Shown here: positions 23,846 through 32,536 of the stretch, in pieces
Layout of the letters: the number at the start of each line of letters is the position of its first letter
Position numbering within the stretch: the first letter of the stretch is position 1
Origin: Hydrogenovibrio crunogenus
GTDB lineage: Bacteria; Pseudomonadota; Gammaproteobacteria; Thiomicrospirales; Thiomicrospiraceae
Direction: 5' to 3'
Length of the DNA: 64,000 nucleotides
NCBI RefSeq assembly: GCF_004786015.1
Contig: NZ_CP032096.1
Location: 1,736,001-1,800,000, forward strand
Notes under the pieces: model-generated
Databases searched by the model: none
Told to the model about the DNA's origin: nothing
Seen by the model: only the letters and a program-made list of their open reading frames with translations
Made by a program: the position numbers and the translations under genes

Positions 23846-24226
23846 TTAAAATAAACTCCAGTGTAAATGAGACAGAATTAAAGTTCCCCATACCAGTAAA
23901 CAAAATCCCATCATCACAAAAACAGCGGCAGACCCCATATCTTTCGCCAGTCCAGAAAGTTCATGCCACTCCTGACCATGCCGATCCACCACCATTTCAA
24001 TCGCTGTATTCAATAATTCCACCACCAGTAATAAAATGACCGACCCAATGAGCAGAATAAATTCAATCGCTTCATTCGACAGCCACATGGCTACTGGCGT
24101 TAGTACCAACAATAATAAAAGCTCCTGGCGAAAGGCTGCTTCATTTTGATAACACGCTTTTATACCTTGCCATGAATAGCCCGCGGCTTTAAAAATTCGA
24201 ACCAATCCCCTGTGACCAGGTTTCAT
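23846..24226 (-). CDS. dgkA: Diacylglycerol kinase
   Basis: DgkA phosphorylates diacylglycerol to phosphatidic acid in the inner membrane. The 126-residue protein has the trimeric DgkA layout with three membrane spans and the signature VELLNTAIEMVVDRHGQEWHEL. It lies 30 bases behind the plcP-like gene on the same strand, so both probably share the upstream Pho-box-type promoter. In that setting it could recycle the diacylglycerol released by a phospholipase C; that link is inference from gene order. Confidence 0.93.
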   Translation of the reverse strand: MKPGHRGLVRIFKAAGYSWQGIKACYQNEAAFRQELLLLLVLTPVAMWLSNEAIEFILLIGSVILLLVVELLNTAIEMVVDRHGQEWHELSGLAKDMGSAAVFVMMGFCLLVWGTLILSHLHWSLF

Positions 24227-24256: not shown

Positions 24257-25096
24257 TCAAGAGTTCGTCTGGTGACCAATTTCGACCCATTGCAATAATT
24301 TCATATCACCGTCCTGAGTTTCGACAATGGCAGTGCAAGACTCGACCCAATCACCGCAATTTAAGTATTCAATCCCTTCAATATCACGAATTTCTGGATG
24401 ATGGATATGACCACAGATCACGCCCTTATAGCCTCGTTTTTTACAGTCTTGCACCACGACCTCTTCATAGGCGGTAATGAAAGAAACTGCCGATTTGACC
24501 TTTTGTTTAATAAATGCTGATAAAGACCAATAGCCCAAACCACACTTATGTCGAATACGGTTGAAATAACGATTCAAAACAACCAGACTTTCGTACCCCC
24601 AGTCCCCAATTACCGCGAGCCATTTTTGGGTTTGAATGACACTGTCATATTTATCGCCGTGAATCACCAGAATGCTATCTCCAGTAACCGTTTGATGCAC
24701 GGCTTCGTCGGTTAACAAGATATTACCAAAATCGACCCCTGAATAACGGCGCAGAAAATCATCATGATTTCCTGTCACAAACACCACTTCCGTGCCACGC
24801 TTGGCTTTGGTGAGAATGCGACGGATCACATTGGTATGTTCCTGTGGCCAATAGATTCGTTTTTTCAGACGCCAGCCATCAATAATATCGCCCACCAGAT
24901 ACAGTTTTTCACATTGATTGTATTTTAAAAATTCCGATAAGAAATCGGCTTTGGCACCACGCGACCCTAAATGGACATCGGAAATAAAAATACTGCGATA
25001 GTGAGAGGTTTGATGATTGTTTTCTGCAACAATTAAATCATCAGTTTCTATATTCTCCATCCAGTCTGGCATGCTTGACAAAGGCATCTCTTTCAT
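24257..25096 (-). CDS. plcP: Calcineurin-like metallophosphatase, PlcP-type phospholipase C
   Basis: PlcP enzymes remove the phosphorylated head group of membrane phospholipids to give diacylglycerol when phosphate is short; they belong to the same superfamily as LpxH and are often annotated as UDP-2,3-diacylglucosamine hydrolase. The 279-residue protein (ATG 25096; a TTG two codons earlier is possible) shows all metal ligands: FISDVHLGS, YLVGDIIDGWRLK, VTGNHDDFLRR, VIHGD, and ICGHIHHPE. The terminal NCGDWVESCTAIVE block and about 279 residues fit PlcP better than the shorter LpxH. The divergent agt-like gene, the linked dgkA and Pho-box-like repeats support a role in lipid remodelling. The LpxH role cannot be excluded from sequence alone. 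Confidence 0.75.
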   Translation of the reverse strand: MKEMPLSSMPDWMENIETDDLIVAENNHQTSHYRSIFISDVHLGSRGAKADFLSEFLKYNQCEKLYLVGDIIDGWRLKKRIYWPQEHTNVIRRILTKAKRGTEVVFVTGNHDDFLRRYSGVDFGNILLTDEAVHQTVTGDSILVIHGDKYDSVIQTQKWLAVIGDWGYESLVVLNRYFNRIRHKCGLGYWSLSAFIKQKVKSAVSFITAYEEVVVQDCKKRGYKGVICGHIHHPEIRDIEGIEYLNCGDWVESCTAIVETQDGDMKLLQWVEIGHQTNS

Positions 25097-25156
25097 AAAC
25101 AACCCATCTACTTTTGATAATTCTGGGCAAGTTTAGCGAGGCCGATCTATTTAAAA

Positions 25157-25185
25157 ATGACGCTTTAGTGACAATTAAATGACTG
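25157..25185 (-). promoter_or_regulatory. Pho-box-like array reading toward plcP
   Basis: Three 7-mers spaced exactly 11 bp (ATGACGC 25157, GTGACAA 25168, ATGACTG 25179), which on the minus strand read CAGTCAT, TTGTCAC, GCGTCAT, close to the PhoB consensus CTGTCAT with 4-bp AT-rich spacers. It lies about 60 bases before the plcP start. No good -10 hexamer was identified. Confidence 0.6.
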
Positions 25186-25197
25186 AAAATAAAGTAT

Positions 25198-25226
25198 TTT
25201 TCATATTTTATTCATCTTACATTCAA
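25198..25226 (+). promoter_or_regulatory. Weak Pho-box-like array reading toward agt
   Basis: TTTTCAT (25198), TATTCAT (25209) and CATTCAA (25220) repeat with an 11-bp period and 4-bp spacers in the plus direction. The core is TTCA instead of GTCA, so the site is weaker than the other two; its spacing and orientation are right for the agt-like gene. Confidence 0.4.
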
Positions 25227-25300
25227 ATACTCACATTACGGTAAAAGGAAATGCAATCGTCCATCAACATACTAATTCAACGATTCTTAAAAGTGGCTTT

Positions 25301-26374
25301 ATGATCAATACGCACAACCAAAACACTCAACAAACAAGTTCATTAAATGCCAGAGGTATTCAGCGACTTACTCTGGTGTCTGATGCCTGGCAGCCGCAAA
25401 TGAATGGGGTGGTGACCACGCTGACTCAACTTGTTCAACAACTGCATAAATCGGGGGTTGAAGTTGATGTCATTCACCCAAACGATTACGCCACAATGCC
25501 CTTACCCACCTACCCTGAAATTCCGTTTGTATGGCGAGCAAAAGACTTGGAAAAACGAATGACACGCTTTAATCCAGACGCAATACATATTGCCACAGAA
25601 GGCGCTTTAGGCTGGAGAGCCAGGCGCATTGCCTTAAAAAACCGGCTACCTTTTACTACGGCCTATCACACCAAATATCCGGAGTATATCCACGAACGAT
25701 TTCCTATCCCAGCTCGTTGGATATACCATATTTTAAAATGGTTTCATCGACCTGCTTATAACACGTTTGTACCCGCCCCTTCGATCTTGAATGAATTAAA
25801 ACGCAAAGGGTTTCCTCATCTTGTATTAATGACCCGCGGAGTCAATACTGAACTATTCAATCCGAACCGAGCGCTTAACCAGAAGCAATCACAGCAAACA
25901 CCTTGCTATTTATATGTAGGACGCGTGGCACCGGAAAAAAACATCACGGCCTTTTTAGACCTTGAGCTTCCTGGACAAAAAATTGTGGTAGGAAAAGGCC
26001 CCGATCTGGAAAACCTGAAAAAGACTTATCCTGATGTTGATTTCGTTGGCCCAAAAGAAGGATCGGAACTGGCAGAATATTACGCCAATGCCAGCGTGTT
26101 TGTATTCCCGTCTTTGACGGATACCTTCGGCGTGGTTAACTTAGAAGCGATTGCCTCAGGAACGCCTGTAGCTGCTTTCCCGGTAACAGGGCCAAAAGAC
26201 ATCATTACTCAAGGTGTCAACGGAGTTCTAGATCACGATTTGAAAACCGCTATTGAAAAAGCGAGTTTATTGAAGACTCCCAACAGCATTGCCAACTCCA
26301 TTCCCGACTATACCTGGCAAGCCGCGACGCAGCAGTTTCTGAACCACTTGGCCATCATTACTAAAGAAACTTAA
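25301..26374 (+). CDS. GT4 glycosyltransferase, Agt-like glycolipid synthase
   Basis: Agt enzymes transfer sugar to diacylglycerol to make phosphate-free glycolipids in phosphate-starved bacteria; related GT4 proteins are SqdX and mannosyltransferases. The 357-residue protein has LTLVSDAWQPQMNGVVTTL at the N-terminus, IHIATEGALGWRARRIAL and TAYHTKYPEYIHERFPIPAR in the acceptor domain, and the GT-B donor motifs YVGRVAPEKN and VFPSLTDTFGVVNLEAIASG (E...E pair, about 262-280). It is divergent from plcP across a 205-base region with two Pho-box-like arrays. Sugar donor and product are not predictable from sequence. Confidence 0.72.
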   Translation: MINTHNQNTQQTSSLNARGIQRLTLVSDAWQPQMNGVVTTLTQLVQQLHKSGVEVDVIHPNDYATMPLPTYPEIPFVWRAKDLEKRMTRFNPDAIHIATEGALGWRARRIALKNRLPFTTAYHTKYPEYIHERFPIPARWIYHILKWFHRPAYNTFVPAPSILNELKRKGFPHLVLMTRGVNTELFNPNRALNQKQSQQTPCYLYVGRVAPEKNITAFLDLELPGQKIVVGKGPDLENLKKTYPDVDFVGPKEGSELAEYYANASVFVFPSLTDTFGVVNLEAIASGTPVAAFPVTGPKDIITQGVNGVLDHDLKTAIEKASLLKTPNSIANSIPDYTWQAATQQFLNHLAIITKET

Positions 26375-26439
26375 ATTATTACAAAACGGTACGACATTTC
26401 TTTAGAATAAAGCTCTCACCATTATCTAAAGAGATGACA

Positions 26440-26763
26440 ATGCCAAAGAATAAAGCCTTACTTCTGTTAGTTGCCGCTTGGGTCGTTGGATTTATCGGTG
26501 CCTTGTTAGGACTACTGTTTGACCCCACCTGGTTCAGTCGTTTTGGCAGTCTGGTGGTGCTATTGGCTGTTATGAGTGAGTACACTTTACTGCATGGTGA
26601 ACTTGCTCGGCTTTATACCAAATTGGATCAAATTTCTGCAGAGGATGATATCCCCGATTTAAGCCCCTCAAGATGGCATCGTAAAAAATTTCAAATGACG
26701 CATGTCACCGTCATTTTAGGTACTTTTATCTGGGGATTTGGTGACTTAATCTTCCCCTTTTAA
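26440..26763 (+). CDS. Hypothetical inner-membrane protein
   Basis: A 107-residue protein not recognised as a known family. It has about three hydrophobic segments: residues 6-28 (ALLLLVAAWVVGFIGALLG), 36-46, and a C-terminal one (VTVILGTFIWGFGDLIFPF) after a charged stretch with PSRWHRKK. The start at 26440 has AAAGAG six bases upstream; the ATG at 26434 would be too close to it. It follows agt by 65 bases without an obvious terminator and precedes the Pho-box-like array of the next gene, so it may be in the agt transcript. Function not predictable. Confidence 0.6.
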   Translation: MPKNKALLLLVAAWVVGFIGALLGLLFDPTWFSRFGSLVVLLAVMSEYTLLHGELARLYTKLDQISAEDDIPDLSPSRWHRKKFQMTHVTVILGTFIWGFGDLIFPF

Positions 26764-26805
26764 TCTAAAAAGAAAGGTCTCCATAAACGAAGCCTGGTGA
26801 TTTTT

Positions 26806-26850
26806 CTGTCAAAAAGCTTTCAACAAGCTGTCATATTGTTTTTTTAAAAC
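26806..26850 (+). promoter_or_regulatory. Pho-box-type promoter for the second glycosyltransferase
   Basis: CTGTCAA (26806), CTTTCAA (26817) and CTGTCAT (26828) have an 11-bp period and 4-bp spacers. Ten bases after the last one comes TAAAAC (26845-26850), the same distance to the -10 as in E. coli phoA. The start codon of the gene is at 26898. This is the best match of the three arrays. Confidence 0.7.
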
Positions 26851-26897
26851 CTTCTAAAATAAAGCCTTTCGAGTTGATTTTGGAAGGACATGAAAGC

Positions 26898-28043
26898 ATG
26901 AAGGTGTGTTTATTTACCGATACGCTCGGCGATTTGAATGGTGTTTCCCGTTTCATTCAAGACATGGGGGAGCAAGCAAATCAACATCCAGAATTTAATT
27001 TTCAACTACACATCGCCACATCAACCTCAAAACCCATTCCGGATACCTCTTACATCCATAATTTGCCCTATCGCTTTAAAGTGGCGATGCCTTTCTATCA
27101 AGAGCTAGATCTGGTATTGCCCTGTCGCAAAGCCATTCGTCAATTCTTAATCGACCAACAACCCGATCATGTTCACATTTCAACTCCCGGTCCTTTTGGT
27201 TGGGCAGCCAAAAAAGAGGCTGAAAAACTGTCAATTCCATTGTTTGGCACCTATCACACCGATTTTCCAGCCTATCTATACGATTTAACCCGGTCAAACT
27301 GGGTCAAAAAACAGACTGATAAAACCATGACCCGGTTTTATCAGAACTTTGAACACATCTTCTCTCGATCGGATACCTATCTCGACATCCTGCAAAAAGA
27401 TCTTAAACTGTCTAAAAATAAAACATCCACCCTTTTTCCTGGCACTCATTTACAACGGTTCCATCCAGATTATCAAACCCCTTCTATTTGGAAAAAATTT
27501 AATTTATCTCCCCAACGCTTAAAAATACTGTATGTTGGTCGAATCAATATCGAAAAAAACATCCCTTTTTTACTGGAAGTTTGGCAAACGCTCTATCAAA
27601 AGAACCCTGACTTAAAAGCCGACTTAATTCTGGTAGGAGAAGGTCGTTACCGAAAATGGGCTAATAAAATGCGCCCTTTTCATATCCACTTTCTCGGCCC
27701 CATTCAAGGTCAAGCGCTCTCAGAACTTTACGCATCTTCTGATTGCTTTATTTTTCCTTCCACCACAGACACGCTAGGGCAGGTTATTATGGAAGCGCAG
27801 GCCAGTGGAATTGGGTGTTTGGTTTCGGATAAAGGTGGGCCACAAAGCCTTCTTCATGAGAACAGTGGTCAAGTTATTGAAGCCAATAATACCCAGGCCT
27901 GGGTGAATGCACTTCAAAAGGTGATAACCCAGGAGGAAATTCGCCACCTTTGGACAAACAACAGTCGACCGAATGCGGAGCAATATGATATTGTTAAGTC
28001 TTTCCAACAATTCCGGCATCAACACTTAACAGAAATACTTTAA
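26898..28043 (+). CDS. GT4 glycosyltransferase, second in the lipid locus
   Basis: A 381-residue GT-B enzyme that begins MKVCLFTDTLGDLNGVSRFI, has HVHISTPGPFGWAAKKEAE and FGTYHTDFPAYLYDLTRSNW in the acceptor half, and donor motifs YVGRINIEKN and FPSTTDTLGQVIMEAQASG. It resembles the Agt-like enzyme about 500 bases upstream but is clearly diverged. It may add a second sugar to the glycolipid or a different head group; alternatively it acts on another acceptor. ATG 26898 has AAGGA nine bases upstream; an upstream in-frame TTG (26874) is rejected. The coding sequence holds an exact CCAGGCCTGG (27893). The EamA gene is coupled by a 1-base TAATG overlap. Confidence 0.75.
   Translation: MKVCLFTDTLGDLNGVSRFIQDMGEQANQHPEFNFQLHIATSTSKPIPDTSYIHNLPYRFKVAMPFYQELDLVLPCRKAIRQFLIDQQPDHVHISTPGPFGWAAKKEAEKLSIPLFGTYHTDFPAYLYDLTRSNWVKKQTDKTMTRFYQNFEHIFSRSDTYLDILQKDLKLSKNKTSTLFPGTHLQRFHPDYQTPSIWKKFNLSPQRLKILYVGRINIEKNIPFLLEVWQTLYQKNPDLKADLILVGEGRYRKWANKMRPFHIHFLGPIQGQALSELYASSDCFIFPSTTDTLGQVIMEAQASGIGCLVSDKGGPQSLLHENSGQVIEANNTQAWVNALQKVITQEEIRHLWTNNSRPNAEQYDIVKSFQQFRHQHLTEIL
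27891..27904. repeat. 14-bp palindrome with CCAGGCCTGG inside a glycosyltransferase gene
   Basis: ACCCAGGCCTGGGT is a perfect palindrome; read with the gene it encodes TQAW. It is in another frame relative to the recX and mutS copies, so protein sequence is not what conserves the motif. Confidence 0.7.
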
Positions 28044-28948
28044 TGTCTCATTCCAACATCTCACTACCGCACAATAAATCCCAAGTTAAAGGGGAAGCAT
28101 ACACCCTTTTACTCTCAATCATTGAAGCACACTTTCCAATTTTTGCCTTTTTTACGGTTGTGGCATTAGGCGCATTACACGCCTACTTTTATAGCTTAAT
28201 TGTCGCCGCCGTGTTGTTAGTGAGCTGGTTTTTGATACGTGGAAAACTCAGCGAGTTAAAACGCACCGAGGCCTATAAAAACTTAGCGCTCACCAGTTTA
28301 TTCATCACCAGTTTATTCAGTTTGATTTTTCTCGCTTTACAAACGACCTCTCCCAGTCACGTGGCAATTATTCTTTTTTTACAGGTGCTGTTCAGTTATT
28401 TATTTCTAGGTCGAAAACCGGGAGAAACCCTGGGCAAAGGTCATTTGGTTGGTGTGGTATTAATGACTTTAGGGGCGGTCGTCATTTTATTCCCTAACAA
28501 GCTCACCCTCAATTTAGGGGATGGATTGGCATTATTGGCCGCCATCATTGCGCCGTTTGCCAACTTATACCAAAAACGTGCCCGATCATTCGTCTCTAGC
28601 GAAACCATTTTAATGATTCGAACCTTAATCGCGTTGCCTTTCATTTACTTACTGGCACTATATTTTGAACCTGCCCCTAGTTGGGAGATGATTCAAGCGC
28701 AATGGCTGTGGATTGTTTTAACCGGCGGTTTGGTCTTCTTTATTTCTAAGATGCTTTGGGTTGAAGCGTTGCACCTCCTTCCTATCACCAAGGTAAATGC
28801 ACTGTATGCCTTTTCCCCTTTATTAACGTTATTACTGGCTTATTGGTATTTGGATGACGCACCGACTTGGACGCAGATATTAGGAGGACTGCCTATCGTT
28901 ATTGGCAGCTATTTTATTACCCAAAAACAGCTTCCAATAAATCGATAA
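28043..28948 (+). CDS. EamA/DMT family transporter
   Basis: A 301-residue membrane protein with about ten hydrophobic segments in two EamA repeats (residues about 20-150 and 160-295; second repeat starts near GDGLALLAAIIAPFANLYQ). Members export metabolites or move lipid-linked sugars across membranes. The start overlaps the stop of the GT4 gene by one base (TAATG), a sign of translational coupling, so it probably serves the same process, possibly moving a glycolipid or sugar; this is inference. A short region without genes follows before a DUF4136 gene. Confidence 0.8.
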   Translation: MSHSNISLPHNKSQVKGEAYTLLLSIIEAHFPIFAFFTVVALGALHAYFYSLIVAAVLLVSWFLIRGKLSELKRTEAYKNLALTSLFITSLFSLIFLALQTTSPSHVAIILFLQVLFSYLFLGRKPGETLGKGHLVGVVLMTLGAVVILFPNKLTLNLGDGLALLAAIIAPFANLYQKRARSFVSSETILMIRTLIALPFIYLLALYFEPAPSWEMIQAQWLWIVLTGGLVFFISKMLWVEALHLLPITKVNALYAFSPLLTLLLAYWYLDDAPTWTQILGGLPIVIGSYFITQKQLPINR

Positions 28949-31531: not shown

Positions 31532-32536
31532 ATGAAAGTAGCCTTCTTCAGTGCAACCAAAACTGATAAGAATTTCTTTGCCAACAACAGTCAAGCTGCC
31601 CCGCTTGAATTTGTATTTTTGGAAGCACATTTATCAGAAAGAACTGCACCGCTTGCGCAAGGATTTGAAGCCATTTGCGTGTTTGTGAATGATGATCTTT
31701 CAGAAGCAGTGATTCAACAGCTGGCCTCTTATGGCGTCAAACTGATTGCTTTGAGATGCGCAGGCTTTAACAATGTAGATATTGAAGCCGCACGCTTACA
31801 CAAGCTCACCATATTACGCGTTCCGGCCTATTCACCGATGGCTGTCGCAGAACATGCTTTAGCGCTCATAATGAGCTTGAACCGAAAAACCTATCGTGCT
31901 TACAATCGTATTCGAGACGGCAACTTTACCTTAGAAGGCTTGTTAGGCTTTGATATATTTCAAAAAACCGCAGGCATTATGGGCACTGGGCGAATTGGCT
32001 TGGAAATGACTCGCATCTTAACGGGCTTAGGGTTAAATGTATTGGTTTATGACCCTTTCCCAAACCAGCAGGCGATTGAATATGGCGCCGAATATGTTTC
32101 CTTGGCAACTTTATACCAGCAAAGTGACATTATTTCTTTGCATATGCCATTACTTTCTGAAACGCACCATATCATTGATGCTGAGGCCATTAATCAAATG
32201 AAATCTGGCGTGATGCTCATCAACACCAGTCGCGGCGCTTTAATGGATGCCGATGCTTTAATCGCAGGGCTTAAATCCGAAAAAATTGGTTATTTGGGGA
32301 TTGATGTATATGAACAGGAAGAAAACCTGTTTTTTGAAGATCATTCTGAGGAAATCATTCAAGATGATGCTTTTGAACGCTTAGTCACTTTTCCGAATGT
32401 ATTAATCACGGGGCATCAGGCATTTTTTACTCAGGAAGCCTTAACGAATATTACCCGAACCACCATTGAGAATATTCTGGATTATCAGCAACAGAACATT
32501 AAACATGATCGTTGTGTATTGTGTGAGGATAAATAA
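31532..32536 (+). CDS. ldhA: D-lactate dehydrogenase (fermentative, D-2-hydroxyacid family)
   Basis: LdhA reduces pyruvate to D-lactate with NADH. With ATG at 31532 (AAGGAAAG eight bases upstream) the protein is 334 residues and begins MKVAFFSATKTDKNFFANNS; E. coli LdhA has 329. It shows LIALRCAGFNNVDIEAARLH, YSPMAVAEHALALIMSLNRK, NAD-binding GIMGTGRIGLEM (GXGXXG), the catalytic R in INTSRGALMDADALI, the E in GIDVYEQEENLFFED and H in ITGHQAFFTQEAL. An in-frame ATG at 31478 lacks a good SD and adds a non-homologous stretch. In an obligate autotroph this would serve redox balance; that is inference. Confidence 0.9.
   Translation: MKVAFFSATKTDKNFFANNSQAAPLEFVFLEAHLSERTAPLAQGFEAICVFVNDDLSEAVIQQLASYGVKLIALRCAGFNNVDIEAARLHKLTILRVPAYSPMAVAEHALALIMSLNRKTYRAYNRIRDGNFTLEGLLGFDIFQKTAGIMGTGRIGLEMTRILTGLGLNVLVYDPFPNQQAIEYGAEYVSLATLYQQSDIISLHMPLLSETHHIIDAEAINQMKSGVMLINTSRGALMDADALIAGLKSEKIGYLGIDVYEQEENLFFEDHSEEIIQDDAFERLVTFPNVLITGHQAFFTQEALTNITRTTIENILDYQQQNIKHDRCVLCEDK

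Follow-up and report, generated by a model that had tools for sequence, protein, structure and literature searches.

Why should genes for a metallophosphatase, a diacylglycerol kinase, two GT4 glycosyltransferases (here called GTA and GTB) and an EamA transporter lie side by side, and what would such a set be for? The locus lies in the 64-kb stretch of DNA analysed here (the window, C1:1736001-1800000, in a 2.45-Mb genome of one contig). The original prediction, made for window positions 24257-28948, saw in it a cluster of plcP, dgkA, an Agt-like glycosyltransferase, a second GT4 enzyme and a transporter, with three repeat arrays spaced by 11 bp in front of them. All five genes are present, although dgkA lies just outside that span and a protein of 109 amino acids encoded within it had gone unnamed. 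We consider it very probable that the locus directs PhoB-controlled remodelling of the membrane lipids, both its regulation and its products being judged from sequence. Remodelling by PlcP and Agt under PhoB is as such already known. The PlcP-Agt1/Agt2 system of Pseudomonas aeruginosa has Pho boxes in front and yields diacylglycerol glycolipids at low phosphate (PMC8528852), marine bacteria carry either plcP-agt (type 2) or plcP-btaA-btaB (type 1) with putative Pho boxes (PMC4796936), and in Pseudomonas putida BIRD-1 PlcP, DagK and OlsAB are reported to be Pho-dependent under PhoBR (PMC5082522).

PlcP and the first glycosyltransferase

The evidence supports assignment of the window metallophosphatase to PlcP and not to LpxH, with a predicted phospholipase C activity. 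Against the LpxH model TIGR01854 the protein scores 46 bits at a cut-off of 190.35, whereas another gene of the genome reaches 247 bits, so that the profile comparison proposed along with the original prediction came out in favour of PlcP. Among the 31 genomes, the host included, that have a plcP match at an E-value of 1e-50 or better, 30 also possess an LpxH above the cut-off, the exception being G046 (177.5 bits versus 190.35). In a tree for which 15 rows were selected from 101 PlcP-like and 18 from 34 LpxH-like open reading frames (ORFs), the two groups fall on separate sides with a support of 100/100, a value to be read in the light of rough bootstrap values and a long-branch warning, and a homologue from Sinorhizobium meliloti stands on the PlcP side. 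This homologue, which is 47% identical to the window protein and whose gene adjoins genes for an acyl-homoserine lactone synthase and a LuxR protein, is, to judge by these neighbour genes, presumably the characterised PlcP SMc00171. The motif GNHD is present in 101 of 101 PlcP-like ORFs (some genomes counted twice), including the window protein, whereas 33 of the 34 LpxH-like ORFs carry GNRD and the remaining one GNHD; this difference provides a motif for telling PlcP from the LpxH label under which databases currently file it. Invariant over 27 PlcP rows are D42, H44, D72, N112, H113, H148, H232 and H234. The suspicion that such genes are misassigned was borne out by plasmid records with a PlcP homologue (25 listed of 34 matched), as the 20 annotated ones all bear the name 'UDP-2,3-diacylglucosamine diphosphatase'. 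Sequence and fold searches of the PDB leave the function of PlcP undecided, because the nearest structure is LpxH at a TM score of only about 0.5.

Motifs and plcP-linked homologues likewise support GTA as an enzyme of the Agt/GTcp type, as had been predicted. It carries GRVAPEKN at 207, FPSLTDTFG at 269 and YHT at 122, in exact agreement with the GTcp signatures GRVAXEKN and FPSXTDTFG and the His-Asp dyad. The excerpt of PMC8231724 names 11 GTcp residues; when these are mapped by motif, all 11 are retained in GTA and 10 in GTB, where Leu replaces Phe. GTA thus has the two signature motifs and the dyad in common with GTcp/Agt, whereas GTB departs from them with GRINIEKN and FPSTTDTLG. Moreover, GTA is 44-47% identical to plcP-adjacent genes in SAR86 and SAR116 loci (47% for SAR116), and it clusters with the SAR86 plcP-linked genes in the glycosyltransferase tree.

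Pho-box arrays in the window and in relatives

Pho boxes were scored with a matrix of three CTGTCAT half-sites in steps of 11 bp, which was defined manually on the basis of the known consensus ahead of any scoring. The three arrays originally noticed, at 26806, 25185-25153 and 25198, proved to be the top three independent sites of the window, and all of them point at the gene downstream, although the box before GTA is weak. The fourth-best site, at 32130, scores 13.3 bits, and on a Markov background 0.06 sites of at least 18 bits are expected by chance per 64 kb. The 26806 array consists of three direct copies at a spacing of 11 and, with 1 mismatch, fits the 18-base consensus better than any other site of the genome. 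With up to 3 mismatches this consensus has 5 matches in the whole genome, two of them overlapping, versus 2 for the reversed pattern; the plcP array has 4 mismatches and so stands outside this list. PhoB is encoded at C1:611824 with a score above the cut-off, and a 19.2-bit Pho-box site lies upstream of pstS.

Tandem CTGTCAT-like half-sites at 11 bp, as looked for in a Pho regulon, are conserved upstream of both plcP and GTB in relatives. The plcP promoter comparison covered 18 of 25 host-family relatives having plcP, 17 of which show a box of at least 11 bits, and the mean over the 18 is 16.8 bits at spacing 11 versus 1.1-2.3 at spacings of 8-10 and 12-14. For GTB the set comprised 12 orthologues, a wider set (n=21) having been dropped as mixed with GTA genes; a box of at least 11.3 bits is found at -83 to -103 in 10 of the 12, the remaining two scoring 7.2 and -0.8, and the mean is 15.7 bits at spacing 11 versus 2.3-4.5 at 7-10 and 12-15. 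Control regions upstream of gshB, dgkA, EamA, DUF4136 and an ABC-F gene (3-6 promoters each) contain no site of 11 bits.

Several observations weigh against the remodelling interpretation. The 25198 array is weak by itself, since about 1.1 sites of at least 14 bits are expected by chance per 64 kb, and the corresponding GTA box reaches 11 bits in just 6 of 15 relatives, over which its mean is 8.4 bits versus 1.8-4.0 at other spacings. On their opposite strand the plcP promoters average 7.7 bits, with at least 11 bits in 7 of 18, scores that are expected if the divergent gene has its own box and that provide no independent proof. One relative of the 18, G029, lacks the plcP box; there btaA comes first, with a 12.9-bit site before it, then a GNAT-like gene and, in third place, plcP. 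Outside the host family a plcP box of at least 11 bits was found in 11 of 55 loci (L041-L096 minus L091). In G003 and G007 no EamA gene was found beside GTB, and the GTB box is missing (G003) or marginal (G007, 7.2 bits). Finally, DgkA consumes diacylglycerol and would hence oppose PlcP and Agt.

The second glycosyltransferase and its transporter

Over 272 columns GTB shares 27% identity with GTA. In a tree built from 50 rows with no outgroup, which carries long-branch warnings and in which GTA and the SAR86 genes stand in for Agt, the GTB rows lie on one side of a branch with 100/100, outside the GTA clade. Membership of GTB in the Agt clade was rejected on this ground, and Agt2 of P. aeruginosa can be likened to it by description only. 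The AlphaFold2 model of GTB (pLDDT 76.9, from 5 sequences) finds MshA (3c4q) as its top PDB match, and sequence and fold searches leave the function undecided because they place the protein only as a general MshA-like GT4 enzyme. Of 55 genomes, 12 contain orthologues of at least 58% identity, every one of them belonging to the host family, and EamA adjoins GTB in 10 of these 12; a sample of 369 genomes drawn from the class yielded only, at an E-value of 1e-45 or better, the host, G012 and two fusion proteins (31-34% identity). As judged by genome comparison, GTB and EamA form a module of their own that is mainly confined to the host family, and EamA, by its family and its linkage to GTB, is a candidate glycolipid flippase.

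But does this module take part in lipid remodelling at all? It is conceivable, if rather unlikely, that PlcP and Agt act as proposed while GTB and EamA perform a separate Pho-regulated task, be it a GpgS-like glycosylation of phosphatidylglycerol (PG) or the export of a metabolite. EamA proteins often export metabolites, and in five relatives of one other genus (G012, G018, G021, G025 and G031) the pair is unlinked to plcP. These five pairs still have boxes, however (11.3-21.4 bits at -83 to -98), and that the pair is dispersed yet boxed alike is the strongest evidence for its belonging to the same response. GpgS, the N-acetylglucosamine (GlcNAc)-PG synthase, is the top NCBIfam model for GTB, but the score of 128.6 bits is far below the curated cut-off of 480, and GTB was therefore rejected as a GpgS. 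With GpgSDF of P. aeruginosa the pair shares a lipid glycosyltransferase adjoining a predicted flippase, but that system differs in its PG acceptor, in including a deacetylase, for which the pair has no gene, and in its flippase GpgF, which belongs to the YbhN/AglD2 family rather than to EamA (PMC12713373). Moreover, decoration of PG would save no phosphate, and in G003 GTB starts 9 bp after GTA.

It is very improbable that the repeats arose by chance or serve a different regulator whose sites are likewise spaced by 11 bp: the intergenic DNA is AT-rich and the 25198 site, taken singly, scores near the chance level, but spacing 11 is the only one of those tried that scores high across relatives, permuted matrices reached the observed mean in 1 of 200 cases for plcP and in 0 of 200 for GTB, and the motif recurs upstream of pstS and olsF in a genome that encodes PhoB. 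Hardly credible is a locus for lipid A or lipopolysaccharide (LPS) in which the metallophosphatase is LpxH and the GT4 pair acts on the LPS core or an exopolysaccharide, for although LpxH is the top match among named families and solved structures and databases annotate such genes accordingly, this assignment was rejected on the low model score, the GNHD motif and the separate clades, and the host, like nearly all the plcP genomes, has an LpxH of its own.

The fusion proteins mentioned above (L245:280-2739 and L246:280-2895), which are the nearest GTB-like enzymes to turn up beyond the host family, join a GT4 part to an N-terminal part that looks PHP-like by eye, and each is followed by a gene resembling that of a histidine phosphatase.

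Proposed remodelling and its wider setting

How, then, might PhoB-controlled remodelling proceed? At low phosphate PhoB would bind the 11-bp repeat arrays and turn on plcP-dgkA, GTA and GTB-EamA, the first and the last of which are probably each co-transcribed because of a 30-bp gap and a one-base overlap (the EamA start and the GTB stop share one base), respectively. PlcP, to judge by its family, would remove phospholipid head groups and leave diacylglycerol, the phosphate then being recoverable. GTA would add a sugar to the diacylglycerol, by analogy with Agt/GTcp glucose and/or glucuronate. Among the least certain steps, GTB may contribute a second glycolipid or a second sugar and EamA may carry the GTB product across the inner membrane. 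DgkA, at a guess, might turn surplus diacylglycerol into phosphatidic acid as a protective measure.

The host's dgkA is the sole match to PF01219 in the genome, a family that also includes undecaprenol kinases. In the host, G002, G003, G005, G006 and G009 it follows plcP in the same orientation; in G007 it lies at a greater distance, and in G001, G004 and G010 it was not found within the 18 kb covered. Two other families also bring these genes together: in G054 plcP precedes a glycosyltransferase gene and dgkA, in G048 a glycosyltransferase gene, dgkA and a further glycosyltransferase gene. The order plcP, GT4, dgkA, GT4 on one strand, at L121:6112-9627 in another gammaproteobacterial family, provides a second instance in which plcP is accompanied by dgkA and two glycosyltransferase genes.

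The locus may be one module of a wider Pho-boxed set that also comprises OlsF, for ornithine lipid, and BtaA with a GNAT-like protein. The OlsF ornithine-lipid synthase scores 833.5 bits against NF052615 (cut-off 620), and its gene (L134:4010-5854, C1:2246009 onward) has six consecutive Pho-box half-sites directly upstream. Five Nitrosomonas loci, three of them truncated by the locus end, have an olsF-like gene no more than about 7 kb from plcP. Four Pho-box half-sites behind an nrdB-like gene (L100:1501-3027, C1:1930802) precede a histidine-phosphatase gene (PF00300) and then an ORF that appears metallophosphoesterase-like by eye. The search for boxes over the whole genome pointed to this gene pair as well as to olsF. 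A BtaA/DUF3419 gene is present in 20 of 55 genomes, 19 of the host family (host included) and one other of the class. In all 16 host-family loci examined out of these 19, btaA is succeeded by a GNAT-like gene in the place of btaB (L222:3808-6335, in C1:262000-274000; L103:4500-6987; 14 further loci), and a site of at least 11.5 bits lies upstream of btaA; in a controlled run 14 of 14 reached at least 11 bits, with 1.4-5.0 at other spacings. Of 3 GNAT-like proteins scanned, 2 score above the cut-off of PF13480. The locus outside the family, G034, has neither the GNAT-like gene nor a Pho-box site. The best match for BtaB in the host genome has 24 bits and 27% identity, in a search with a single BtaB-like query, the gene after btaA in S. 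meliloti, which a diverged methyltransferase could escape. The BtaA-GNAT pair possibly makes a homoserine lipid of a new sort, and among the open-access matches listed we found no account of BtaA with a GNAT partner.

As a speculative extension, which we put forward with little confidence, the host may run a multi-branch, phosphate-saving lipid programme from PlcP-derived diacylglycerol with two novel products, a GTB glycolipid flipped by EamA and a BtaA homoserine lipid modified at its amino group by the GNAT-like protein instead of being trimethylated by BtaB. If this is true, each of the two would represent a membrane lipid or a lipid route so far undescribed, and even apart from it the two lineage-specific pairs may make novel lipids.

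Compared by description with P. aeruginosa, the host likewise has plcP beside a GT4 agt, a second GT4 and Pho boxes upstream, but its plcP-dgkA and agt are divergent, dgkA stands beside plcP, and GTB, outside the GTA clade, is paired with EamA, whereas the second GT4 of P. aeruginosa is encoded elsewhere (PMC8528852). As in the marine bacteria, plcP of the host family adjoins an agt-type or a btaA gene with putative Pho boxes; unlike in their plcP-btaA-btaB loci, btaA is followed by the GNAT-like gene, and GTB-EamA is extra (PMC4796936). With P. putida BIRD-1 the host shares PlcP together with a diacylglycerol kinase and ornithine-lipid genes, but its dgkA adjoins plcP and its ornithine lipid would be made by OlsF (PMC5082522). 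The original prediction knew of no description of the full gene set in sulfur-oxidising gammaproteobacteria. This stands in so far as no such locus for Hydrogenovibrio or Thiomicrospira appeared among the open-access matches listed, but a second glycosyltransferase is not new by itself (Agt2 of P. aeruginosa, PMC8528852), nor is a Pho-dependent diacylglycerol kinase with PlcP (P. putida, PMC5082522). As far as these papers go, what is new is the module of GTB and EamA, the placing of dgkA with plcP in this lineage, and the way in which OlsF and BtaA-GNAT are combined with them. The named sequences closest to the window PlcP come from Hydrogenovibrio, Thiomicrospira, Thiomicrorhabdus and one metagenome-assembled genome of Piscirickettsiaceae; the host, judging from these relatives, is presumably a sulfur oxidiser, and PlcP-based remodelling would extend to relatives of chemolithoautotrophic sulfur oxidisers.

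Table 1. Genes and Pho-box arrays of the locus, in window positions
Feature	Position	Strand	Description
dgkA	23846..24226	(-)	PF01219, 116 bits (cut-off 22.3); prokaryotic diacylglycerol kinase family; gap after plcP 30 bp
plcP	24257..25102	(-)	PF00149/PF12850; calcineurin-like, predicted PlcP-type phospholipase C; start likely near 25096
Pho-box array	25153..25185	(-)	three half-sites at 11 bp; 20.0 bits; faces plcP-dgkA
Weak Pho-box-like array	25198..25230	(+)	13.9 bits; faces GTA
GTA, first GT4	25301..26374	(+)	Agt/GTcp-type diacylglycerol glycosyltransferase by motifs
109-amino-acid protein	26434..26763	(+)	between GTA and GTB; two hydrophobic segments
Pho-box array	26806..26838	(+)	CTGTCAAAAAG CTTTCAACAAG CTGTCATATTG; 27.3 bits; precedes GTB-EamA
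GTB, second GT4	26898 (likely start)..28043	(+)	PF00534, PF13439; MshA-like fold
EamA/DMT transporter	28043..28948	(+)	PF00892, 105 bits; candidate glycolipid flippase

No family scored above its cut-off for the 109-amino-acid protein in the family profile searches, and counterparts of it occur in a few close relatives (loci L104, L108 and L110). A scan for sigma-70 promoters gave fewer promoter-like sites than shuffled sequences (8 versus 11.7) and was not used. The pgi-ugd region contains two minus-strand Pho-like sites (L136 near 2652 and 3508; C1:690624 and about C1:691500), which are probably due to chance; the one at C1:690624, in the 3' end of pgi and on the strand opposite to ugd, was rejected as such. 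The product of ugd would supply UDP-glucuronate.

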